Below, one piece after another: positions 1 to 15,262 of a stretch of 20,530 nucleotides of DNA. Source of the DNA: a virus; IMG/VR virus record IMGVR_UViG_3300044972_000531, positions 1 through 20,530 of that record. One strand, written 5' to 3'. Made by a program: the position numbers and the translations under genes. Numbering within the stretch: the stretch's first letter is position 1; every line of letters begins with the position of its first letter. Under the pieces are notes generated by a model. The model ran no database searches, had not been told where the DNA came from, and saw only the letters and a list, made by a program, of their open reading frames with translations.

Positions 1-614
1 GGTGGATATCCAGGATTAAGTGGGTTTCCAGTTCTGTAATAAAATCCACCCTCATAGGTTACTGCATCACCATAACCGTAATCTACGCCATTATCATATG
101 GTCCAATTAAAGTCCATGGAGCAGGACCTGTAGCACCAGTTACTCCTTGAATACCTTGGATACCCTGGTTTCCTTGAGGACCAGTATTACCTTGTGGTCC
201 TACTTCACCTTGAATTCCTTGAATACCTTGGATACCTTGAGGTCCAGTATCTCCAATGGGTCCCTGAGGCCCTGTATCGCCCTGTAAGCCCTGTTCACCC
301 TGTATACCTTGTATACCTTGCTCACCTTGCAAACCAGTCTCTCCGATTGGCCCTGTAGGTCCAGGAACGGTAGAGTCAGCACCAGTAGGACCCTGCGGTC
401 CTGTTAGTCCAGTAGGTCCTTGAGGACCCCTGTCATTAGAAACTAATACATCAGTAACAACGTTTTCAATTTCAACTAGTACATTTGATGGAGCAGTAAA
501 CTCTAAGGTATACACTTCTTGGGTAATAAAATTTTCAATGTCAATTGTTACCTGAGAAGGAGAGGTAAGTTCTACATTATATACTTTTTCTTCAACAAAT
601 ATTTCTGTAGACAC
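1..614 (-). CDS. Collagen-like phage fibre/tail protein (3' end off window)
   Basis: The frame is open from a GTG at 614 to the left edge, so at least 204 residues are present and the C-terminus is missing. The GTG shares one base with the upstream TAG stop (TAGTG). Three parts are visible. Residues 1-60 hold two degenerate tandem copies of about 23 residues, each ending in PS(Q/N)V-x-(I/V)-(D/E)-IEN. Next come roughly 30 Gly-X-Y triplets rich in GPQG, GIQG and GPTG, with one interruption at [11 protein letters not shown]. After that starts a globular part, [11 protein letters not shown] then [15 protein letters not shown], which resembles the small aromatic-rich modules found after collagen stalks in phage fibres. 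Collagen-like repeats form trimeric stalks in many phage fibres, so a host-contact or appendage role is inferred. The third part is too incomplete to name. The C-terminal receptor-binding end, if any, lies outside the window. Confidence 0.85.
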
Positions 615-2459: not shown

Positions 2460-2957
2460 CTATTCACTGCCGAAAATCAGATTGAGAAGTTCTTCCTCGG
2501 TCTGAGCCTGATTAATACGGAGAAGGGCATCTTCTGCGCGGTCAGGTGACACAGCACCGGAGGTTACGGCATCAATCTGACGTAATGCAGCCAAGTCGGC
2601 TGGATTAACGGCAGTCCCCGCGTTAGCGGAAGGCACACCAAAAACGTCAGCATAGTCTTCAAGCCATGAATCAAAGTCGTTAGACTCTACATCAATGTCT
2701 TGCGGAATGAATGCTGCTATCTTTGGGCTGATGCCCTTGGATTCTAGGATGGACTTGACACTGGTATCGCGAGTTGTCTTCCGGAGTGACGTTAACTCGG
2801 ATTCCAATTCTTTGATTCTCTTTGATTGTGAACGTTCTGCACGACGCAACTTCTTTACAACATCATCACCTGATGCACGCCGAGGCGTTGGTTGCTCGTC
2901 TAAATCGTCCTCAAAGTCGTCTTCGAAGTCGTCCCATTCTTGAATGTTGTTACTCAT
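2460..2957 (-). CDS. Capsid scaffolding protein
   Basis: 165 residues, ATG at 2957 with AAGGGAG about nine bases upstream. The N-terminus is very acidic (EWDDFEDDFEDDLDEQP), then comes a basic coiled-coil stretch at about 30-60 (VVKKLRRAERSQSKRIKELESELTSLRK), a helical middle, and an acidic C-terminus. High charge, a coiled coil, small size and position immediately upstream of the major capsid gene are the standard picture of a phage scaffolding protein, which guides procapsid assembly and is later expelled or cleaved. Sequence similarity in this class is low, so the call rests on architecture and order. The proteasome-like peptidase encoded at 11.1-11.6 kb is a candidate for removing it. Confidence 0.78.
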   Translation of the reverse strand: MSNNIQEWDDFEDDFEDDLDEQPTPRRASGDDVVKKLRRAERSQSKRIKELESELTSLRKTTRDTSVKSILESKGISPKIAAFIPQDIDVESNDFDSWLEDYADVFGVPSANAGTAVNPADLAALRQIDAVTSGAVSPDRAEDALLRINQAQTEEELLNLIFGSE

Positions 2958-3959: not shown

Positions 3960-4903
3960 TATGCACCAAATCCAAACGCTTTAGCAAATGATGAACCAAG
4001 GTTCTTTGCTTCTTGTTGAGCCATTGTACCATATTGAAAACGAGTATCTGCACGTAAATCTGCGCGGAACTCGTTAAGAGTTTTAGTGTAAGGCTTACTG
4101 TCTTTTGTAGCAGTAAGAGCCTTGCTTAGTGTGTTGTCAAATAAAGTTATCTTATCTGCATTTAAGTCAAGCATTGATGCCATAGTTTGAATGTAGTCTT
4201 GTGCAGCCTCGCGAACAGTTAACGCTGGGTTTTTATTTAGAGCATCAGCAAGACTACCATACAAAGCAATAGCACGCTTTCTGTAATCATTTTTAACTGT
4301 AGTCTCATCACCTTTACCAAGGATAACATCAAGGGTTTGTCCAATTGCAGAACTGTCTGAAAGAACAACACCCATCTCTGATGCGTAAGTTTTAAGATTA
4401 TTTAGAGTCGTTCCTGCTAAACCACCTAGTGACTTTCCTTCTTGAATATATTTGGTTGCAAGACCAACGCTGTACTCGTAAAGGAATGCACCTGTATCAA
4501 ATGAATAACTAGTACTAGTACTGCTAGTACTACCACTACTAGATGAACCACCCGAAGTGTTTCCCTCTGCATCAGTTGTACTTGAAGTTCCACCACTTTC
4601 AGAACTTTTACTTTTACTTTTACTTGCATACCTTTTTTCAGCAGCACGTAAAACCTTAAAGTAAGCAGCCTTTTCTTTTAGGGTTGCGCGACGACCAAAT
4701 AGAGTAATCATCTGTTGGTCTAGTTGACTATATGCAGAAACCTTGGGAGTAAAAGAGTATGACTTACTCTTACTTTTACTTGATGAAGAACTACCCATAC
4801 TGTAAGTAGTAGGTTTACCAGTACTATTAGCACCAGCAAAAGTATCCCCTTGGGTTGCGATAGCAGGATTGTCTGCTGCTGGGCCACTATTCTCGCTTGC
4901 CAT
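3959..4903 (-). CDS. Ser-rich virion-associated protein, unknown function
   Basis: 314 residues, ATG at 4903 overlapping the upstream TAA by one base (TAATG). The N-terminal half contains two low-complexity segments: SSSSSKSKSKSYSF at about 38-51, and SKSKSKSSESGGTSS followed by SGGSSSSGSTSSTSTSYSF at about 94-135. These flank a helical segment (QLDQQMITLFGRRATLKEKAAYFKVLRAAEKRY). The C-terminal half is helical and ordered, with ALNKNPALTVREAAQDYIQ and RADTRFQYGTMAQQEAKNLGSSFAKAFGFGA. The DNA behind the Ser tracts is itself repetitive (TACTAG and TTTTAC units). The layout of disordered linker, helix, linker and helical domain fits a flexible internal virion protein. No enzymatic motif is seen and I cannot name a family. 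Confidence 0.7.
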   Translation of the reverse strand: MASENSGPAADNPAIATQGDTFAGANSTGKPTTYSMGSSSSSKSKSKSYSFTPKVSAYSQLDQQMITLFGRRATLKEKAAYFKVLRAAEKRYASKSKSKSSESGGTSSTTDAEGNTSGGSSSSGSTSSTSTSYSFDTGAFLYEYSVGLATKYIQEGKSLGGLAGTTLNNLKTYASEMGVVLSDSSAIGQTLDVILGKGDETTVKNDYRKRAIALYGSLADALNKNPALTVREAAQDYIQTMASMLDLNADKITLFDNTLSKALTATKDSKPYTKTLNEFRADLRADTRFQYGTMAQQEAKNLGSSFAKAFGFGA

Positions 4904-7900
4904 TATTTAACTCCATTAAGTATTGGTGAATCAACAATGTTTAATTCATCTTGAGATAGATAGCGTTCATACATTTGCTCAAAATCAGGATTCTGTGCAA
5001 TAATGTATTCAGCCATTCGGTCACGCCAATCAGCGAAACGCTCATTAGTTTTAGTATCAAGACCCTCAACTCCAGTTAGAGCGCGGTTCTTTTCTAGTTC
5101 TGCCATGATTACTTCACGACCTTCAAGGTACATAACTAGTCCTTGAATTGACTTATTTTTAGTACCAACAGTTTTCATAAACTGCTCGTCTTTAGTAAAG
5201 TAAAGTGCAAGTTCTACAAACTTATCACTCTTCTGCAATGTTATACGGTTTTCGCGAGTGTCCCAGATTGGAAATTGTTTACCAACGTAGTCAGCAAGAC
5301 GTTCTTTCCATGGACTGTAATACTCTCGATAAGCAGCGGAACCCTTTTTGATGCCATTTTTTTCTGCATCTCGTTCAATGTACTCAAGGTTATTAAAGTA
5401 TTCAGACCAACCAGCGGACATTTGAGCACGACGCTCTGCATCTTCTGGAGACATGTTACGGCTCTTTAATGGTTCACCATTGATTTCAATACTATAAAGT
5501 AAGTCATCCGCAATCGGACTATAGTTATTTTCTTCACCAGGAATATTAAATAGAGCACCAATAAATGGATTGTCTTCATAAAGTTGTGCTGCTTTACTTA
5601 GGGAATTAGTATTAGCCTGAATTCCCTTAACTGTCATTGTATTACTAATTAAACCAAATCGATTGTCAGAATTAGATGAACGCAATGTAGAAACAACACT
5701 ACTTGCGAACATAACACCTTGAGAGTCAAGTTCAGTAATAAGTTTAACAGAACCTTCAGAGTATCCAAATTCATTCTGATACTTTGTAAGACTCTGATTT
5801 AATTCCATCATCTTTGAATCGTTAGTTTTACCAGCAACTACTGGTCCTATTCCAGATGATAACGCTTCGACCATCAATGCTTTTCGAGCCATGTCTTCGG
5901 CTCTAGCAGTAACTTCATCGCTATCTAATGACTCATCATTAAGAATCATTTCGGTAGCAATCTCGTCGCGCGCAGCATCTAAACGTGCAACCCAACGCTG
6001 TTGAACTTGAGGAACTACTTGTTCAATAATTGGCAATGAGCCAGTCATTCCATAAGTAGCGGCAAGGGCAGATATGGTTGCAGAGTTAAATGGAACTGCA
6101 GCACTCTGTACGTTGCTTAGTAAACTACGTCCGTAACCTTTTTCGTAAAAAGGCAAGATGTGCTTACTGGAAAATTCATCAAAAGTAACATCAAAGTTAT
6201 CTTGCAAAAATGAATCTATATTAGTATTTTTTGCTGCAAGTTTAATGCCTTCAGTTGCAATAACTTCACCAACAGGTCCACCAAATGTAGGAATAACAGG
6301 AACCTGTCCCTGTGTAATTACATCAAATCCAGTTGGATTAATTGTAATTGTATCTCTACCAGTTTTACTACGGAGCCATGCTGAGTTAAGTACAATGTTT
6401 TCTTTTCCTGTACCTTTACCCCATGGAGTACCTTCTTCTACAAGATTTCCTTCTTCGTCATAGACGTATCCAGAGCGGTATGGAGCATTGTACGCTTTTG
6501 CAAGCATGTAAGCAACTTCAGGGTTACGAGCAGTTGTTCCTAACCAAAAACGACTTGAGTTCTGGTGTGCCATGTAAAATGGTGTTAAGAAGCGAAGTAC
6601 TTTTGCAGGACTAGTGTATCTTTCTACAGAATAAAGACGCTGCATCAGTTCTTTGTAAGCACGGTCAGTAGCACCAATCTTAATGCGGTCAGCATTAGAT
6701 TCTATGTACGCTCTAACCGAATCATCTGTTGCACCCGGAACCTTGCGTGCTTCTGCTTCATAACGACGAGCCAATTTCTTGGCTTCCGCATCATGAACCA
6801 TACTAAAGAATGGATGACGAATTAGTCTATCTTCAGGCAATGTACCAATAATATTAAATACAAAAGAGACGGCATTTTTATATCCATTGGTAAGAGACTT
6901 GTCGCGTAATTCAACTGCACCAGTAACTTCGAATCTATCATTTAGATGAATTCGCGCTGATTCTTCAGGAGTAAATCCATCGACTGCAAGTTTATGAATA
7001 TTTCCATATGAAACTCCAGGAACAGAACTGCTTGTTGGAAGCAACTGTTCAATCTGTGCATATGTTACTGCAAGTTGTTCTTCAAAGGAAAACTTTGTAT
7101 CCATAGCCCTTGACATGTTTGTCATGCTTTGGTTAATTTCGCGCTTCCAGTTTACTGCTTCTGTATCGGAACTATTCAACCATGCTTTAGCATCTTCAAG
7201 TGCCCTAGTTGGTGATTTTCCTTCTGCTAATCCTTCAACAATTTTACGAGCAGCAGCGTCCTTCATAATCACATTGTTCACGTAATCAGAATGAGCATTG
7301 GCCCACTTAATATCTGTTCTATCAATTCCACGACGAGCATGCCCAGCATTAAGGAATCCACTGCCAGTTACGCGACGCTCATCTAAAAGAATACGAGTTG
7401 AAGAAACTTTGGAACTAGAGGCATTACGAATCATGTCTCCGGCTTCGCCTGCAAAGGCTTGACCTATGTATACACCAGGAAATATTTCTACTTGGTTTTC
7501 ACCGGTATAAGATTTTTTAATTTTACCAGAGGGTGTGACTTTACCGCCAAGTACAGTTAACTCATCTTGCAGGTCTGCTCTTTGAACTAACAATCCAATT
7601 GTTTTATCAGCATGAACGCTCAAACGTTCTAATCCAAACTTTGCATTTCCTAAAGCATAAGAAACAGTTTGCGCTCCATTGGCATCCATCTTTTCTAATT
7701 TAGATAGAGCAAAGTTTGCATCATCACGGTACTTAACAATAGCGTTAATAATGTCCATGCTGGTTGAGCGGTTTGCTAACTGAGCAGCATCTTGCCATTG
7801 CTGGTTTGTAAATAAACGAATAAATTCGTTTCCTGCGTCTGAACCATAATCTGCTTTACCACTAATTGCTGGGTCAACAAGTTCTTTCATTGCTTTTACA

Positions 7901-10425
7901 ATGTCATCTGCTTCTTTAACTCCAGAAGACTTGTATCTTGCCAAGGCTTTTAGTTGGTCTTTTACAATAAATGACGCAAGTGCAAGCCCATCAGTATCTT
8001 TAATGATTTCCTTATTGGCTTCATCAATCATGATTTTTTTAACGCCCATTGCAATCTTCATTCCATCATTACTTGGAATTAATTGCTTTTTGATTATACC
8101 TTGTTCTTTGCGTAAATCTTGCGCCCTATCATTAAATTCTTTAGTTGCTTTTTCGCTTGTCTTACGGTATCCACGATTACTTAGACCGCGTGCAATTGAA
8201 CCTGGGTTTCTCCGAGCACTAAACATGTCGGTCCAGCCGTAACCATATGTTGATGCAAAATCATACATGGAAGCAGCAGTACGCAGGTATCCTTCAAAGA
8301 CGTTACGTGTTGTATACTTAAAACTTAATAGGGTAAATGGCTTCCAAGCATAGGTGTAAAACTTATCTAGCCCGTCAATAGCAACATCGTACCCGGTGCG
8401 AACTCCTGGCTTAAGAATGTCTGAGTATAAAGAGTAACTTCCAGTTCCGCCTTCAAGTGCTGCCCGCTCTGCGGTCTGCATTGTTTCTCTTACCTTCTTG
8501 GAATCCCAACCCTCTTCCAGGATACCTTCCATTACTCCGCGAAGCAATTGTGGATTTTCGCTCATAATTTGGTCGAAGAACTTTATATCAACACTAAAGT
8601 GAATTCCAGGAACTTGAGTTTCAGTAAGGGTGTTTGCTGCTAGAGACCTGCGAATTGCGTAGTAATCATTACTATCGGCAACTGCGCGGCCTTCTCCTGC
8701 TGCTCTTTCTTCTGCTAGTCTTGTAACAATTTTTTCCATCTCAAGATGAGCCTGAGGAGAACCACCCTCTGCTTCATCTGCAATGGTGTACTTCTTTTCC
8801 ATAAGACTTTTAATCTCACGAGACTTTGCACGGTTAGTTGATTGAATTAGTTCACGTGCAAATACATTGGCTGCATCACGTTGAACCATATTCATTACAC
8901 CAAGTTGTTCACCGTAGTGCTTTTGAATAAGTGCTTCAATTCCCTCGTCCTGAAGATTTTCAAGAAAGTAAAAACGTTCTGACTTACTAGTTAGACGGCG
9001 GTAGTCGTTTGAACGACCTTTCATCCAGTCAACGTCTTTTCCAGAAAGTTTTCCAATTTGAGAAATACGAGAATCTGCCTCTAGGTAGGAACGCTTACCA
9101 GCAGTTCCACCAAGGTGCGCAAGACCAGCAGGAACTTCACGCAACTGCTGATTTGGATTAATCCACATTGCTGCACGAACTGCAGAAGTTTTCATGTTAT
9201 TTGCTTTTGCAACTTCACGCGCTAAACTAAGTTTTTTGGTTGGGTCAATGTTTAAGAAAATACCATCTGACTGTACAGTTGCAATACCTGCGCGTACGCG
9301 TTCTAAGTAAGAATACTTAGACCAGGTTCGTCCAATTGAAAGGTCACCTTCAACAACGGTGCGGAAAGCACCTTGCTTCATTAGTAACTCTTCTTCTTGC
9401 TTGGCAATTGCTTCGCGAGCGTCAACAACTTTTTGCTTTGCGGCAATGTTCTTTTCAAAGTTTTCTGGTGACATTTTTATTTTAGATTCAACAAGTTGAC
9501 CAATTGCTTTTTCTTCATCAAGAAGTTGCTGAGTCTTACCAGTGTTCTGAATTAGTAATTCATGAATATCGCCGTATTGAATTTTAACTTTTTCTAGGCT
9601 AGGAATGTGACCAAGGGAAGCCTTGATTACATCACCCATTGCTTCTCTTCCACCAACCTTAAAGGCATCAGAAAGAGATACTGCGTAACCCGAAGGGTTA
9701 GATGAATCTGCAACTAAACCATAGGCTTGAATTGCGGCGATGTTCTCTGGGTCTTTTTCTACAAGTTTGAAAATTTGAGCAGCGGAAGTATTTGATGCCT
9801 GATTAGTAACTGCTTCGTCAATTTCATTAACTAGCATATCAACTCGTCCGTAGCGACTTCCTGCTGGACGAATTAACTCGCTCTTGCGGATTACTTTTAC
9901 AGCACCGCCACCAACTAGAAAAACTGGGTCTAAGAAGTTAAATCCAAGGTCTGCTGTACCTGACCAGAATTGTGCTGAACCAGAAGTGAAGTAATCATTT
10001 ACTTCTTTTGAGTTGGACCAGTCAATTTTATCTGTTCCTTGCTCACCAGCAAAATTCCAGTCACCAATTAAACCAACTAATGCGCGACCAGGAGAAATAC
10101 TGCGTCGCCATTCTTCTTCACCTTCAACGGATTGCTTTGAAGATTCAAATCCATTTTGCATTTGCTCTACAAATGACAGGTTGCTGTTTTGGTCTCGGTA
10201 GTTACTGTTTAACTGTAAAAGAACAGCACTTAGACCTGGGGCAATGTAATCGCGGTAAGGAATTGCAAGTTTACTTAAAGCCGACAAAGCAGGCTCTGCG
10301 GTTTCTACAACATTCTGTCCAGTTTCACCCTCAAAAAATCCACCGACTTTTTTACCAACAAAGTCTTTGGCTTGTTCGAATGGATTATTAGGATTATCTA
10401 CAAATGCATCAATAGGATTAGCCAT
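4903..10425 (-). CDS. Giant (1840 aa) putative internal/ejected virion protein
   Basis: 1840 residues, ATG at 10425 sharing a base with the upstream TAA. It is the longest gene in the window, about one quarter of it. It is largely helical, with long charged stretches (for example KQKVVDAREAIAKQEEELLMK at about 320-345). There are recurring aromatic-rich islands: KPFTLLSFKYTTRNVFEGYLR (about 690-715) and SPAKVLRFLTPFYMAHQNSS (about 1272-1292). I see no clear peptidase, lysozyme or polymerase signature. Proteins of this size between portal and scaffold are typical of podovirus-type phages that eject large internal proteins with their DNA, whereas siphoviruses place a tape measure after the tail-tube genes. 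The internal virion role is inference from size, order and the 'LRFLTPF..A..N..RFW' type island, which I associate loosely with large phage structural proteins. A fused enzymatic domain cannot be excluded by eye. Confidence 0.75.
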   Translation of the reverse strand: MANPIDAFVDNPNNPFEQAKDFVGKKVGGFFEGETGQNVVETAEPALSALSKLAIPYRDYIAPGLSAVLLQLNSNYRDQNSNLSFVEQMQNGFESSKQSVEGEEEWRRSISPGRALVGLIGDWNFAGEQGTDKIDWSNSKEVNDYFTSGSAQFWSGTADLGFNFLDPVFLVGGGAVKVIRKSELIRPAGSRYGRVDMLVNEIDEAVTNQASNTSAAQIFKLVEKDPENIAAIQAYGLVADSSNPSGYAVSLSDAFKVGGREAMGDVIKASLGHIPSLEKVKIQYGDIHELLIQNTGKTQQLLDEEKAIGQLVESKIKMSPENFEKNIAAKQKVVDAREAIAKQEEELLMKQGAFRTVVEGDLSIGRTWSKYSYLERVRAGIATVQSDGIFLNIDPTKKLSLAREVAKANNMKTSAVRAAMWINPNQQLREVPAGLAHLGGTAGKRSYLEADSRISQIGKLSGKDVDWMKGRSNDYRRLTSKSERFYFLENLQDEGIEALIQKHYGEQLGVMNMVQRDAANVFARELIQSTNRAKSREIKSLMEKKYTIADEAEGGSPQAHLEMEKIVTRLAEERAAGEGRAVADSNDYYAIRRSLAANTLTETQVPGIHFSVDIKFFDQIMSENPQLLRGVMEGILEEGWDSKKVRETMQTAERAALEGGTGSYSLYSDILKPGVRTGYDVAIDGLDKFYTYAWKPFTLLSFKYTTRNVFEGYLRTAASMYDFASTYGYGWTDMFSARRNPGSIARGLSNRGYRKTSEKATKEFNDRAQDLRKEQGIIKKQLIPSNDGMKIAMGVKKIMIDEANKEIIKDTDGLALASFIVKDQLKALARYKSSGVKEADDIVKAMKELVDPAISGKADYGSDAGNEFIRLFTNQQWQDAAQLANRSTSMDIINAIVKYRDDANFALSKLEKMDANGAQTVSYALGNAKFGLERLSVHADKTIGLLVQRADLQDELTVLGGKVTPSGKIKKSYTGENQVEIFPGVYIGQAFAGEAGDMIRNASSSKVSSTRILLDERRVTGSGFLNAGHARRGIDRTDIKWANAHSDYVNNVIMKDAAARKIVEGLAEGKSPTRALEDAKAWLNSSDTEAVNWKREINQSMTNMSRAMDTKFSFEEQLAVTYAQIEQLLPTSSSVPGVSYGNIHKLAVDGFTPEESARIHLNDRFEVTGAVELRDKSLTNGYKNAVSFVFNIIGTLPEDRLIRHPFFSMVHDAEAKKLARRYEAEARKVPGATDDSVRAYIESNADRIKIGATDRAYKELMQRLYSVERYTSPAKVLRFLTPFYMAHQNSSRFWLGTTARNPEVAYMLAKAYNAPYRSGYVYDEEGNLVEEGTPWGKGTGKENIVLNSAWLRSKTGRDTITINPTGFDVITQGQVPVIPTFGGPVGEVIATEGIKLAAKNTNIDSFLQDNFDVTFDEFSSKHILPFYEKGYGRSLLSNVQSAAVPFNSATISALAATYGMTGSLPIIEQVVPQVQQRWVARLDAARDEIATEMILNDESLDSDEVTARAEDMARKALMVEALSSGIGPVVAGKTNDSKMMELNQSLTKYQNEFGYSEGSVKLITELDSQGVMFASSVVSTLRSSNSDNRFGLISNTMTVKGIQANTNSLSKAAQLYEDNPFIGALFNIPGEENNYSPIADDLLYSIEINGEPLKSRNMSPEDAERRAQMSAGWSEYFNNLEYIERDAEKNGIKKGSAAYREYYSPWKERLADYVGKQFPIWDTRENRITLQKSDKFVELALYFTKDEQFMKTVGTKNKSIQGLVMYLEGREVIMAELEKNRALTGVEGLDTKTNERFADWRDRMAEYIIAQNPDFEQMYERYLSQDELNIVDSPILNGVK

Positions 10426-10589
10426 TATTCACCAATCTTCTTGTTGTTATTTAATGTTATAAGTTCATTAATGAATTGATTGCGTTGGTCATCGCTCGCC
10501 CAGTCGATTGATGCAAAACCAAAAACAATATCTGGGTGCTGCGAACCAAGGACATTAGTAAATGCCGCAATATGGTTCTCTAAACTCAT
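10425..10589 (-). CDS. Small hypothetical protein (54 aa)
   Basis: An ORF that fills the gap between two clear genes. ATG at 10589 overlaps the preceding TAA, and its own TAA at 10425-10427 overlaps the start of the giant gene. The product begins MSLENHIAAFTNVLGSQHPD, contains a VFGFASIDWASDDQRNQFIN segment, and ends in a polar helix with NNNKKIGE. It is mostly helical, without Cys or a membrane span. Tight coupling on both sides makes it very likely to be translated. It might be a chaperone or assembly factor for the adjacent giant protein, but there is no direct evidence for function. Confidence 0.7.
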   Translation of the reverse strand: MSLENHIAAFTNVLGSQHPDIVFGFASIDWASDDQRNQFINELITLNNNKKIGE

Positions 10590-11050
10590 TAATTATTCCT
10601 TGCTTGAGATAAAACTGATTTCCAAAAGAGTTTGAACCCTTCAGACTGCCCATCTTGGGCTGCTTTTGTATCTAGAACATCTTTATATGCTTTAATCATT
10701 GCAAAACGGTCAGGAACTTCAGGTTCTGGTGTCATTCCAGGGCCTGTCATGTAACCATTGGTTACAGGAACACCTGGGTTTTGAGTAGGAGCGTTGATTG
10801 GAACTATCGGATTTGCCATACTTGCTTCTCTTACCTGTGCTGCACTAGGACCTTGAGACCTAGAACCTGCTAAAGGTGCTCCTTGAGTAGCAGCAGCGGT
10901 GTCAGAACGATAACCGTACTGTCCGTTTGATGGTACTTCGCGCATTGCTTGCTTAGTTCCAGCCATTCCATCAGTCCTTTTTCCAGAACGAGGATTGGAA
11001 ACAGCAGCGCGCTTTTCATTTGAAGGTGCGCGATATCCGCCACGTGCCAT
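10589..11050 (-). CDS. Disordered Gly/Pro-rich virion-module protein (153 aa)
   Basis: ATG at 11050, three bases after the peptidase stop, with GAGGAGC six bases upstream, a strong ribosome-binding site. The first 60% is low-complexity and basic, rich in Gly, Ser, Arg, Pro and Gln (MARGGYRAPSNEKRAAVSNP; later PIVPINAPTQNPGVPVTNG), and probably disordered. The last about 40 residues look helical (DRFAMIKAYKDVLDTKAAQDG then FKLFWKSVLSQARNN). No family recognised. Sitting next to a putative maturation peptidase, it could be a substrate, an inhibitor-like partner or a minor scaffold; these are guesses from order only. Confidence 0.68.
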   Translation of the reverse strand: MARGGYRAPSNEKRAAVSNPRSGKRTDGMAGTKQAMREVPSNGQYGYRSDTAAATQGAPLAGSRSQGPSAAQVREASMANPIVPINAPTQNPGVPVTNGYMTGPGMTPEPEVPDRFAMIKAYKDVLDTKAAQDGQSEGFKLFWKSVLSQARNN

Positions 11051-11051
11051 G

Positions 11052-11564
11052 TTATGCTCCTCGTCGTACTATCTGGATTGGTCCTCCAGAGTTAATATCT
11101 AATTTAATAGCAATCTTCATTGCTTCTTCGATGGTCGCCCCGGCAAGTATTGCTCCAGTCGCCCAGTTACCACCAGTGCCGATAGAATACGTATTAGTAT
11201 TCGTACGTAAAATTGAATAATCTTCGCAAACATAAAATAACTTATTCTCTAGACCGACTATGAAAACTGCGCCTTCGTCATCTTTAAGAACGTAGCCAGT
11301 TTCTTCGTGTGCCCTGCGCATTGCAGGTACAAATTTTGATACCATAAACTTATACAAGTTACTGCCATCATACACTGGAGGTTCCCAGCCATAGGTAATA
11401 ATGTCGCAATAGCGACTTACACCTGCACCAGCAATAACATAGTCACCAACTTCTGTGATTTTTTTTATGTCTTTGCTAACCCAGGCTCTTTCACCTTCAG
11501 TGGTTTGACTATCTGCCGCAAGTGTAAAACCTTTTCGGTTTTGTACGCCTACGATAGTTGTCAT
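11052..11564 (-). CDS. Proteasome/HslV-like Ntn peptidase, putative prohead protease
   Basis: 170 residues, ATG at 11564 two bases after the portal stop. The N-terminus MTTIVGVQNRKGFTLAADSQ closely matches the HslV (ClpQ) opening 'MTTIV.V...G....A.D.Q.T.G'. Counting from Thr2 as the processed N-terminal nucleophile, Asp18 and Lys34 (in DIKKI) fall at proteasome Asp17 and Lys33. YVIAGAG matches the conserved 'viAG.aG' strand, and SIGTGGNWATGAILAG matches the 'igsGg.yA.aA' motif with Thr in place of Ser at the oxyanion-side position. KLDINSGG near residue 156 matches 'alDi.....'. The length equals HslV. No HslU/ClpX ATPase partner is visible. Its position between portal and scaffold is where head-maturation proteases usually sit, so cleavage of scaffold or other head proteins is inferred. 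An alternative is a proteasome-like enzyme acting on host proteins. Confidence 0.82.
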   Translation of the reverse strand: MTTIVGVQNRKGFTLAADSQTTEGERAWVSKDIKKITEVGDYVIAGAGVSRYCDIITYGWEPPVYDGSNLYKFMVSKFVPAMRRAHEETGYVLKDDEGAVFIVGLENKLFYVCEDYSILRTNTNTYSIGTGGNWATGAILAGATIEEAMKIAIKLDINSGGPIQIVRRGA

Positions 11565-11565
11565 A

Positions 11566-13335
11566 TTATCCGCCCATTGCCGAAAGAATTGTTGCTATGT
11601 CAGCAGGTGGCTGTTCAGCCTGAGGTGGTCCTGCTGGTTGTTCTGTTGATGGTCCTGGAGGAGCCTGTTCTGCAGGTACTCCTCCACCCATTGCTGCGAG
11701 CATTTGCTCAGGTGCCATAGGTGCTTGAGGAACCATTTCTTGTGGTTCAGGTTCAGGAGGAGCAAACGATTCAAGAACTGCATCTTCAATGTCTTTACCG
11801 CGGCGACGCGACTCAATAACCTTAGCCATTTTATTAATAATGTCTGATGGGTCTTGTCCCTGAGCGGCCATGCTAGGAATTGCTTGTGCTGTTGCAGCAA
11901 GTGAACCTGCAAGTGAGTCTCGCATTCGCTCTACGTCAATCTTTTCTTGCTCTGCAGAAACGTTCATTGACCATGGTAGTTCGCGCATTACAAAGTCACG
12001 GGAAGCCAAGTTAGCCTGTAGTGCTTGTAGTGCAAAGATTAGGGCTCGGTTAGGGTCAAGTCCAGCCATAAGGCCATAACGTGCCTGTACTGAGTAGTCA
12101 CCATTAATGTCTTTGTAGGTATCATATGAGATTTCATACGGTGTACCAGTTTGAGTACCCGTAATCTTCTTTATACCACCAAAGAGGCGTTCGTCCATTT
12201 CGAAGCATAGGCCGATAACGTCCTCAAACAGTTCCTGAAGAATCTGCTGGCCAGCCTTAACCTGCGTATCGAAACCACCGAGAAGGGCTTGCACTCCGGA
12301 GCCAGTAATGATGCTAGCATCAATTGTTCCAGAACGGCCTTCAGGGTATCGTGCACCCATGCGCATTTCGGATTCTAGTACTGCTTGCTCCTGGAACGCA
12401 CCAGAAGGTAGTTCTAGTCCTACTCGTCGGATACCTTGTGGGTTGGACGAACGTAAAATTGCGTCTGGTCCGAAAGCGAATTCTTGTACGTCCTGAGGAA
12501 CAGCAAACGGAGCATTAACTGACTTTTCCGCAGCATCCATGGCGAGCCATGCGAAGCGTGCGCGAGCAAGTTGCGGGTAGATAACATCATCAAACTGTCC
12601 ACGTGGGTCATCAGGGTCAATCCCTGGTCGGCGCGCGATGCGCACTGTAACCATACCCATTGGGTTTATAGCCTTCTTTAATGGAAGGTTATCCTTTTCG
12701 GGTAGGAAAAGTAAGATTTGGTCTTTATCCTCATAACGGATTAATTCCAGTTGCTGGTTCATATCCGTGTTGTCGCGACCTTGACGACCGATTATTTGCG
12801 ATTCGTATTCTGGAAACTCAACAATAAGTTCACGCATACTCTTTAGGTATCGCTTGGTGTATGACACTAACCGACCGTGGCGGTCAAACTCTGGGTAAGC
12901 ACCTAGTGGGTTTTCCACACGGATTCGTGGCATAAAAGTTTCAAAGTCTGGTTCTACAACAATTGGCAGGAAGCCATATGTTAGATACCAGTCTGCACCG
13001 TAGTACATTTGGCTTTGTAGTTTAGAAGACTGAACATAGTGATTGGCAATTACTGTCTTAGTATCTGCCCTTTTCTTAGCGCGCTCGTTATTCGTCTTAA
13101 CTGTTTGGCAGTTAAAGGAAGGTAGCGGAGCAAGTACTTCGGAAATGTCGCGGGCTGCCACATCAATGAAGTTAGCAATCATGGACTGAGACGCGCCCTC
13201 TGGGAACATCTCTGGTGCAACATTGGATAGGTTTCCACGGCGTACGTCTAGTACGTCTGCCATGCGCTGGTCGCGATACGAGTAGCGTTGTTTTAACGCT
13301 TCTACCTTATCGGAAACTTGTTGTGCTGATAGCAT
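11566..13335 (-). CDS. Portal protein
   Basis: 589 residues from ATG at 13335, chosen over an in-frame ATG at 13386 because AAAGGA lies seven bases before it and because the longer form would overlap the terminase gene. N-terminal region: MLSAQQVSDKVEALKQRYSY, then VRRGNLSNVAPEMFPEGASQSMIANFIDVAARDISE, typical of portal N-termini that describe membrane-free helical clip/wing domains. The middle contains YGADWYLTYGFLPIVVEPDF and a conserved ENPLGAYPEFD turn. The C-terminal 90 residues form a Pro/Gln/Glu-rich disordered tail with two related ends (MLAAMGGG and ILSAMGG). Portal proteins form the dodecameric DNA-entry ring at one vertex and bind terminase. Support is the order (terminase then portal), size and composition. 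I cannot say which portal subfamily it belongs to. Confidence 0.87.
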   Translation of the reverse strand: MLSAQQVSDKVEALKQRYSYRDQRMADVLDVRRGNLSNVAPEMFPEGASQSMIANFIDVAARDISEVLAPLPSFNCQTVKTNNERAKKRADTKTVIANHYVQSSKLQSQMYYGADWYLTYGFLPIVVEPDFETFMPRIRVENPLGAYPEFDRHGRLVSYTKRYLKSMRELIVEFPEYESQIIGRQGRDNTDMNQQLELIRYEDKDQILLFLPEKDNLPLKKAINPMGMVTVRIARRPGIDPDDPRGQFDDVIYPQLARARFAWLAMDAAEKSVNAPFAVPQDVQEFAFGPDAILRSSNPQGIRRVGLELPSGAFQEQAVLESEMRMGARYPEGRSGTIDASIITGSGVQALLGGFDTQVKAGQQILQELFEDVIGLCFEMDERLFGGIKKITGTQTGTPYEISYDTYKDINGDYSVQARYGLMAGLDPNRALIFALQALQANLASRDFVMRELPWSMNVSAEQEKIDVERMRDSLAGSLAATAQAIPSMAAQGQDPSDIINKMAKVIESRRRGKDIEDAVLESFAPPEPEPQEMVPQAPMAPEQMLAAMGGGVPAEQAPPGPSTEQPAGPPQAEQPPADIATILSAMGG

Positions 13336-13345
13336 GGATATCCTT

Positions 13346-15220
13346 TTACATGTAAATGACTTGTTGCTCTGCGTAAGCGTCGTCAAGGTTTATTACTCCG
13401 CGCTGCGCTTCTTGCTTGCGGGTAATGAATCGATTATGTGAGAAGTAACTTGTATTTGTCCCTTGTCGGACAATCTCTTGGGCTTTGATTTCACAAAACC
13501 ATAGTGCCATAACAAGGTCGGTAGCACCCTTGGTAGTTGCTGACCAAGTAATTAATTGGTTAACAAGTGCCTTAGTGTGTTCGTTAATGTTGTCTGGGAA
13601 TTCAAGCAAGTTGTCGTTTTGAAACTTTCCATCTCGGATTGTTCCCATGAGGTTAGATATGGCTGCGACACCAAAACCAACATCCCATTTATTCTTGCCT
13701 GTAAACTGCTCAGCGAGTCTAGTGCCTCGGTTGGCAAGCCAATGTCGTAAATCTTCGTCAAGTGAGAATGCTTTCTGGAATGCATTGATTTCAATGCGTA
13801 ACTCCATAGGGCGGTATCGCTCTACAAAGTCTTCGATTAAAGAACGGATTTTGCGGGGAGTAGGGTCTGACATGTTGTAGCAGTCAAGAACCATTCTATG
13901 TCCGGTATCTCTTTCTACCGCATAAACTACGGCAGCAGTCTTACCAGCCATGGCAGGGTCAAGACCCATAATGGTTACCCAGTTACCACCCGAGGGGTGG
14001 CCAGGCGCATTTCGATTAAGTGGCCCAGGCTTCCGCATTCGGTTGATGCAACCGTTAACCACCAAGGGTGGGAATACTGCGTCTTCTTCAACGTCTTGCT
14101 GTTGGTATACCAGAGCCCAAGTTGAGGAGGACACTTCGCCACGTCTGCGATAAAGTTCGGTTCCATCCCATTTGGGGTAATGCCCATTCTCGTCAGGGTA
14201 AGTATCCTCGTCACCATCCCAGGGACGGTCCGACTTAGGCCAGAGGGTGACCCAGTTCTTAGGGTCATCCGCAAACTCCAGTACCGCTGGCATTGCGAGA
14301 TAGGTAAATGGGGATTCGCCTTGTGCCCAATGGTCCTCGTTGCGGAGTTCCTTATACAGGTCAATAGAGGATACGCGTGTTCCGGCGACAATTAATTTAC
14401 CATTCTTACCCAAACGGGTAATAACCATCTTCTGCAACCAGTTGAGTTGCTTTTCCCATTCATGGGCGTTAGTAGTACCTACAACGTCATCAAGAATGAT
14501 TAGGTCGGCGCGAGTACCGTAAATCTGCTGGCCGATACCCAGGGCCTGTACGGTTGGGTCCTTTTCACCAGATGAGCGTTCTAGATAGATTCTATCCTGT
14601 GTCCATTGGTCCGCGGTGGCTTTATAGCCTCCTGCTGGTCCATACACTTGCTGCATCTTGAGCCAGGCATCCTCAGTTAATCTTTGCTTGACTGAGTACA
14701 AGAATTCTTTGGCGCGCGTCTGAGTCTGGGATACAAACACAATGCGGATGTTGGGGTCCATGGCTATGCGGTATGTGGCATAGTTAACCGTTAAAACGGT
14801 GGACTTGGCGTGCTCGGGGGGTACGTTTACTAATAGGCGATTTGAGTTGCCGGTCATGTACGTCATGGAGTCATGTAGCCAAGAAGGCTCTTTTCCCTCT
14901 AGAACATCAATCCAGGACTGGTGGTGTGGGAAGACTTCCATGTTTAGGAACTCTTTAGAGAAAGTGGCAAAGTTAATCTTTTTGTCGGAGGCTACGTGTA
15001 ACGAGGAGGTTACAGTCTGAGCCCCAAGCGAAGACGCTTCATCTAACTTGGATGAGAACTTAGGGTCTTTGAGCCAGTTCCGGAGAACTTCCTTCTTGCG
15101 CCCTACGTTATTGAGCGCGGCCTCCACAGGGATTCCCTGGGATACCAGTTTAAGGACAGAGGCTTGGTCATTGGCCAATTTAACTCGTGTATGGTGTAGG
15201 TCACCACCTTTTGCACCCAT
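13346..15220 (-). CDS. terL: Terminase large subunit (DNA-packaging ATPase/nuclease)
   Basis: 624 residues from ATG at 15220; an in-frame TTG at 15232 is an alternative, and neither has a strong ribosome-binding site. The N-terminal about 70 residues resemble a small helix-turn-helix (SVLKLVSQGIPVEAALNNVG then EVLRNWLKDPKF), as found at the front of some large terminases. Walker A-like PPEHAKST lies at about 134-141 and Walker B LIILDD at about 240-245. A coupling-motif candidate, VAGTRVSS, is at about 278-285. The RNase H-like nuclease domain begins at IMGLDPAMAGKTA (first catalytic Asp at about 421) with an acidic LRIEINAFQ further on. The protein pumps DNA into the prohead through the portal and cuts concatemers. 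It is the first gene of the leftward unit. No separate small terminase subunit is visible in the window. Confidence 0.93.
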   Translation of the reverse strand: MGAKGGDLHHTRVKLANDQASVLKLVSQGIPVEAALNNVGRKKEVLRNWLKDPKFSSKLDEASSLGAQTVTSSLHVASDKKINFATFSKEFLNMEVFPHHQSWIDVLEGKEPSWLHDSMTYMTGNSNRLLVNVPPEHAKSTVLTVNYATYRIAMDPNIRIVFVSQTQTRAKEFLYSVKQRLTEDAWLKMQQVYGPAGGYKATADQWTQDRIYLERSSGEKDPTVQALGIGQQIYGTRADLIILDDVVGTTNAHEWEKQLNWLQKMVITRLGKNGKLIVAGTRVSSIDLYKELRNEDHWAQGESPFTYLAMPAVLEFADDPKNWVTLWPKSDRPWDGDEDTYPDENGHYPKWDGTELYRRRGEVSSSTWALVYQQQDVEEDAVFPPLVVNGCINRMRKPGPLNRNAPGHPSGGNWVTIMGLDPAMAGKTAAVVYAVERDTGHRMVLDCYNMSDPTPRKIRSLIEDFVERYRPMELRIEINAFQKAFSLDEDLRHWLANRGTRLAEQFTGKNKWDVGFGVAAISNLMGTIRDGKFQNDNLLEFPDNINEHTKALVNQLITWSATTKGATDLVMALWFCEIKAQEIVRQGTNTSYFSHNRFITRKQEAQRGVINLDDAYAEQQVIYM

Positions 15221-15262
15221 GTCAACATCCAATCAAAACTACAAACAAAACGTGTTACAAAA

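Follow-up and report, generated by a model that had tools for sequence, protein, structure and literature searches.

Small proteasome-like proteins borne by phages and bacteria have been described as the AAH, CPH and PPH families, which lack a propeptide and an AAA+ partner and are of unknown function (Fuchs et al., 2021; PMC8665760). In that survey no AAA+ partner co-occurred with these homologs, no genomic context hinted at the function of the newly recognized proteins, and no Actinobacteria-specific phage with an AAH was found (PMC8665760). HslV-like genes are also present in the jumbo phage pSal-SNUABM-04, which encodes separate prohead serine proteases (PMC7823757). A further set of phage proteins is gathered in PHROG 1040, with members from phi92-like Stephanstirmvirinae, Shewanella phages 1/4 and 1/40 and others; in the phages that we viewed, the gene lies away from the portal, among nucleotide-metabolism or other non-structural genes. 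To our knowledge, no phage member has been assigned a biochemical activity, an oligomeric state or a substrate. While the phage proteasome-homolog family is thus already described (PMC8665760), two features are new as far as our tools show, namely that such a peptidase is common in podovirus-like actinophages and that its gene behaves there as a movable cassette.

The gene that we consider comes from a window of 20,530 nucleotides (the whole stretch of DNA analyzed). The open reading frame noted in the initial annotation was recovered at its exact coordinates as a 170-aa minus-strand gene (Table 1); a plus-strand reading of 11052-11564 is broken by stops. It belongs to a compact operon with the order terminase, portal, peptidase, four further genes (products of 153, 1840, 314 and 291 aa), scaffold and capsid, its start codon falling 1 bp past the portal stop and its end 1 bp ahead of the next gene. 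The placement between portal and scaffold that had been claimed for it holds in so far as it directly follows the portal, but the four further genes just named separate it from the 165-aa scaffold.

Table 1. Coordinates of the peptidase gene and its neighbors in the window.
Feature	Position	Strand	Basis
Proteasome-like (HslV/BPH-like) Ntn peptidase, 170 aa	11052..11564	-	ORF, profiles, AlphaFold model, alignment of relatives
Thr2 codon, presumed nucleophile	11559..11561	-	Thr in 90/90 distinct relatives, four different ACN codons
Portal protein (phrog_104)	11566..13386	-	PHROGs; conserved start MLS at about 13335
Large terminase subunit (phrog_38)	13346..15232	-	PHROGs
153-aa protein (phrog_8200), next conserved gene past the variable slot	10589..11050	-	PHROGs; related loci
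1840-aa protein (phrog_10618), probably an internal/ejected virion protein	4903..10425	-	PHROGs; operon position
Probable scaffold, 165 aa (phrog_7813)	2460..2957	-	PHROGs; weak matches to scaffold families
Major capsid protein, N4-gp56 family, 307 aa	1504..2427	-	Profiles; without long N-terminal prodomain

The product of this gene is a proteasome-fold Ntn hydrolase, and the proposal that it is a phage-encoded proteasome/HslV-like peptidase is upheld by both profile searches and structure prediction. First, it matches the Pfam Proteasome family (PF00227) with 29 bits (cut-off 22.4) and, in a PHROGs profile search, phrog_1040 ('peptidase HslV family') with E=1.4e-31 over residues 1-167, which is its whole length; the NCBIfam proteasome and HslV equivalogs gave weak matches far under their cut-offs (for HslV, 24.7 bits vs 137 and 24.6 vs 157.75). 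The best phmmer matches were to designed tandem-repeat proteins and titin and were discarded as artefacts of summed weak repeat matches. Second, an AlphaFold model computed from a 43-sequence alignment (pLDDT 91.5, pTM 0.87) displays the alpha-beta-beta-alpha sandwich of the superfamily, with helices at residues 50-58 and 70-89. The first-ranked Foldseek match to the model is the beta-proteobacterial proteasome homolog BPH. Comparisons with VIA-align recovered Trypanosoma HslV (4hnz; Z 18.9, 160 aligned residues, rmsd 3.0), BPH (5ovt; Z 18.7, 157 aligned, rmsd 2.1) and many 20S beta subunits (Z about 17), giving a range of Z 17-19 across the three groups, and paired residue 2 of the model with chain residue 1 of the HslV and BPH structures. 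The structural check that the initial annotation had called for, against HslV and 20S beta subunits, hence favors the Ntn sandwich.

The active site could be examined across 90 distinct relatives. Thr2, Asp18 and Lys34 had been read as having the spacing of the proteasome Thr1/Asp17/Lys33 triad; of these, Thr2 and Asp18 are indeed invariant in 90/90, but the lysine had been placed one residue too early. Position 34 is a lysine in only 39/90 relatives, most having V, P, T or D there instead, and this poor conservation rules it out as the catalytic residue, whereas Lys35 shows no variation in 90/90, the loop being one residue longer than in HslV. The GTGGNWATG and AGAG motifs were found as described, at residues 129-137 and 45-48 respectively; residue 130 is variable, being Ser, Thr or Asn among the relatives. 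Nearly all relatives begin with MTT, and in most loci there is no in-frame start codon upstream of the peptidase and therefore no propeptide. Among close relatives (pairs at 76% identity or more) dN/dS is about 0.03-0.12, which shows the gene to be under strong purifying selection. Taken together, the PF00227 and phrog_1040 scores, the invariance of Thr2 and Asp18 and the dN/dS values place the resemblance to proteasomes far beyond chance. The protein looks catalytically intact, with a predicted triad of Thr2, Asp18 and Lys35.

In terms of its affinities, the protein is best read as a member of the group I proteasome-like proteins, that is the HslV/BPH/AAH/CPH/PPH assemblage of Fuchs et al. 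(2021). BPH (5ovs/5ovt/5ovu) is its best match by both profile and Foldseek, with Thr1 of BPH pairing with Thr2, although BPH is bacterial and only about 21% identical to the window peptidase. With HslV it shares, besides the fold, a TTIV N-terminus and a GSGG-like motif; it differs in the low equivalog score given above and in that no HslU was found in the related records. Like AAH, CPH and PPH, it is small, has no propeptide and no AAA+ partner was found for it; PPH, however, is about 140 aa long and lacks helix H2 (PMC8665760), as against a length of 170 aa with a helix at residues 70-89 here. The phages considered here are actinophages, whereas that survey found no AAH in a phage specific to Actinobacteria (PMC8665760). 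Members of PHROG 1040 are about 30-35% identical to it and have the MTT N-terminus in common with it. As the proteasome-like superfamily also includes the ligase connectase (PMC8665760), and as residue 130 varies between Ser, Thr and Asn, the Ntn chemistry could conceivably serve something besides proteolysis, such as specific peptide ligation of the connectase kind or amidohydrolysis. We consider this improbable, given that the nearest structures are peptidases and that this compact protein does not have the insertion in the active site that has been described in connectase.

Similar proteins are found in 219 phage records with very different gene neighborhoods. The closest isolate that shares the operon is Planktophila phage LanE43AprE7 (E7; OX376640; record name 'Caudovirales sp. 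ct2KA10'), in which the same order is seen: terminase, portal, peptidase, a protein of about 150 aa, a giant protein, scaffold and capsid. Planktophila phage LanE43AprF5 (F5; OX376641) likewise encodes both peptidase and portal. The Planktophila phage peptidase is about 33% identical to that of the window, and these are isolates with a known host: both phages were isolated on 'Ca. Nanopelagicales', and the closest isolates with the same operon have 'Ca. Planktophila' as host (PMC10202952). WhiB, an actinophage marker (PMC10202952), is present in 17 of 21 related records. As the window is an incomplete 20.5-kb virus record, its own host can only be deduced, and the carriers appear to be podovirus-like phages of freshwater Actinobacteria. 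Scans of bacterial genomes recovered no close bacterial relative, a weak negative since such scans need short conserved peptides.

To assess the association with the head genes independently of the peptidase, we collected loci by searching for the portal and inspected the gene right after it. This gave 76 new loci: in 26 the portal is immediately followed by the peptidase, in 44 it is not, and six end too early to judge. The 44 peptidase-free slots are either empty or occupied by a short ORF (about 75-90 aa) with an acidic tail; after the slot come the next conserved gene, for a protein of about 105-180 aa, and then that of the giant protein; in two Streptomyces genomes the slot is filled by three small ORFs. 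Presence and absence in the slot require at least eight state changes on the portal tree, and even loci whose portals are about 75% identical to that of the window (L087 and L088) have the slot without the peptidase. The most telling case is a pair of phages, L022 and G002, with 88% DNA identity from terminase through portal: the 516-bp peptidase gene of the former stands opposite an unrelated 83-aa ORF (252 bp) of the latter in the same slot, and from the following gene onward the two can be aligned again, at 72% DNA identity in the downstream flank. This is a clean cassette swap. The small slot proteins of the relatives (L170:13889-14140, L087:4944-5183, L151:7715-7966 and others; about 75-90 aa) have very acidic C-termini (EEEEED/DEDED), and several display a common 'W..TGL..HALEND' motif; searches of PHROGs, Pfam and PADLOC assigned none of them to a family with confidence.

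A slot lacking the peptidase need not mean a genome lacking it, an equation that relocated copies in four genomes (G001, G003, G004 and G005) rule out. Whole-record searches showed that three of these (G003, G004 and G005), in which the slot is without the peptidase, have a copy on the opposite strand, next to replication genes, while G001 has a divergent copy in the replication region. In larger phages the peptidase adjoins a CHAP endolysin or a RuvC-like resolvase, and helicase genes are also among its neighbors in other phages. True absence was seen in the metagenomic genome G002, which is complete (its two ends share a 207-bp overlap at 99.5%), and in the complete genomes of the Streptomyces phages Immanuel3 and WRightOn. 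Another 22 slot-negative records, most of them fragments, had no peptidase match anywhere in the record; as several slot-negative loci are fragments, whole-genome absence is established for the three genomes only. Each record that gave a match had just one copy. The peptidase is thus dispensable and its position changing.

These observations bear directly on the idea of the initial annotation that the gene occupies the head-protease position and encodes an unusual maturation enzyme, i.e. an Ntn threonine protease that cuts scaffold or capsid. The idea draws on the gene's place right after the portal, which the window shares with 26 of the 76 portal-found loci, on expression with the late genes as judged by position, and on the profile scan of the window genes, in which no other named head protease was recognized. 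However, the gene does not behave as a conserved part of the head module: complete genomes with the same head module lack it, an unrelated 83-aa ORF cleanly replaces it, and it relocates to the opposite-strand replication region, all alongside the same portal, scaffold and capsid. Capsid and scaffold align well among the window, G002 and Planktophila phage E7, and those of the Streptomyces phages, if more distant, are of the same kind. None of the capsids compared has a long N-terminal prodomain, although short cleavages or digestion of the scaffold would be compatible with the sequences; the capsid is alike whether the gene is present or not, and the longest capsid N-terminus belongs to the peptidase-less G002. 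The coexistence of HslV-like genes with separate prohead serine proteases in pSal-SNUABM-04 (PMC7823757) points the same way, and a literature search yielded nothing usable on a threonine prohead protease or on virion evidence for phage HslV-like proteins. Given the slot variation, relocation, swap and unchanged head proteins, we rejected head maturation as the best reading and regard it as very unlikely; the protein is probably an optional helper rather than the enzyme that matures the virus head. In the window's own subgroup it may have a virion-associated role, since there it sits in the late structural operon.

The suggestion that the peptidase acts without an ATPase partner fared better. 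AAA_2, to which HslU, ClpX and similar proteins belong, was over the cut-off in 0/19 related records (the window being an incomplete 20.5 kb), which fits the published absence of an AAA+ partner for these homologs (PMC8665760). The recurrent AAA match was ruled out as a protease partner, being a DnaB-like helicase where examined (L166 and L168) and occurring also in the peptidase-less G002. Many Actinobacteria possess a Pup-proteasome, and this, along with the want of a phage unfoldase, raises the prospect of the peptidase co-assembling or competing with the host 20S proteasome, or with another host AAA+ partner, and altering host proteolysis. The prospect seems slim: the resemblance to HslV and BPH is at least equal to that to the beta subunits, and a literature search gave no relevant paper on a Planktophila proteasome.

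Accordingly, with moderate confidence, we favor an accessory, catalytically active intracellular peptidase over a dedicated head-maturation protease, a target in counter-defence or host takeover being one version of this; that it acts in the infected cell is suggested by its changing gene positions. The peptidase would be translated with the late structural operon, as its start just past the portal stop suggests. Methionine aminopeptidase is expected to remove a Met preceding Thr, and the host enzyme would in this manner remove Met1, making a propeptide unnecessary. Thr2, Asp18 and Lys35 would then make up the active site, as their invariance and the fold indicate, and the subunits would probably form a ring as in HslV and BPH. 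With no phage AAA+ unfoldase, the targets that the enzyme cleaves in the infected cell might be peptides, unfolded proteins or one host protein in particular; alternatively, it might borrow a host ATPase.

The version in which the peptidase degrades a specific host protein for counter-defence or takeover, with its cassette behavior reflecting an arms race, is in keeping with the peptidase having been gained, lost and swapped repeatedly in one slot, with the great differences in phage size and gene order among the carriers and with the strong purifying selection. With no PADLOC match (PADLOC lists defence rather than counter-defence systems), we give it a low probability. Equally speculative is the fuller form of the proposal, in which a stand-alone viral proteasome-like ring, without an AAA+ partner and traded among actinophages as a cassette, removes such a defence or takeover target; if true, a viral proteasome homolog would for the first time have a defined role. 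Irrespective of this, a single actinophage lineage offers a natural experiment, with near-identical phages with and without the gene, late-operon as against replication-side positions and cultured carriers in Planktophila phages E7 and F5. These natural plus/minus phages and gene positions argue against the tempting head-protease annotation and render the function testable.

Other genes of these phages also merit mention. A 409-aa protein of the window (19090-20319, plus strand), encoded opposite to the structural genes, contains an Amidoligase_2 domain (PF12224, E=9e-8), and relatives repeatedly have homologs of it upstream of the terminase. At the window end (3-614, minus strand) lies the start of a collagen-like Gly-X-Y repeat protein, cut by that end and probably a tail fibre. 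The 1840-aa and 153-aa proteins evolve much faster than their neighbors: compared with the related locus L019 they show 37% and 41% identity respectively, as against about 80% for capsid and peptidase. Finally, in two Streptomyces Beephvirinae (L163:16040-17988 and L164:16390-18410), which have the same head gene order, arrays of more than 20 tRNA genes lie between the internal-protein genes and the scaffold.
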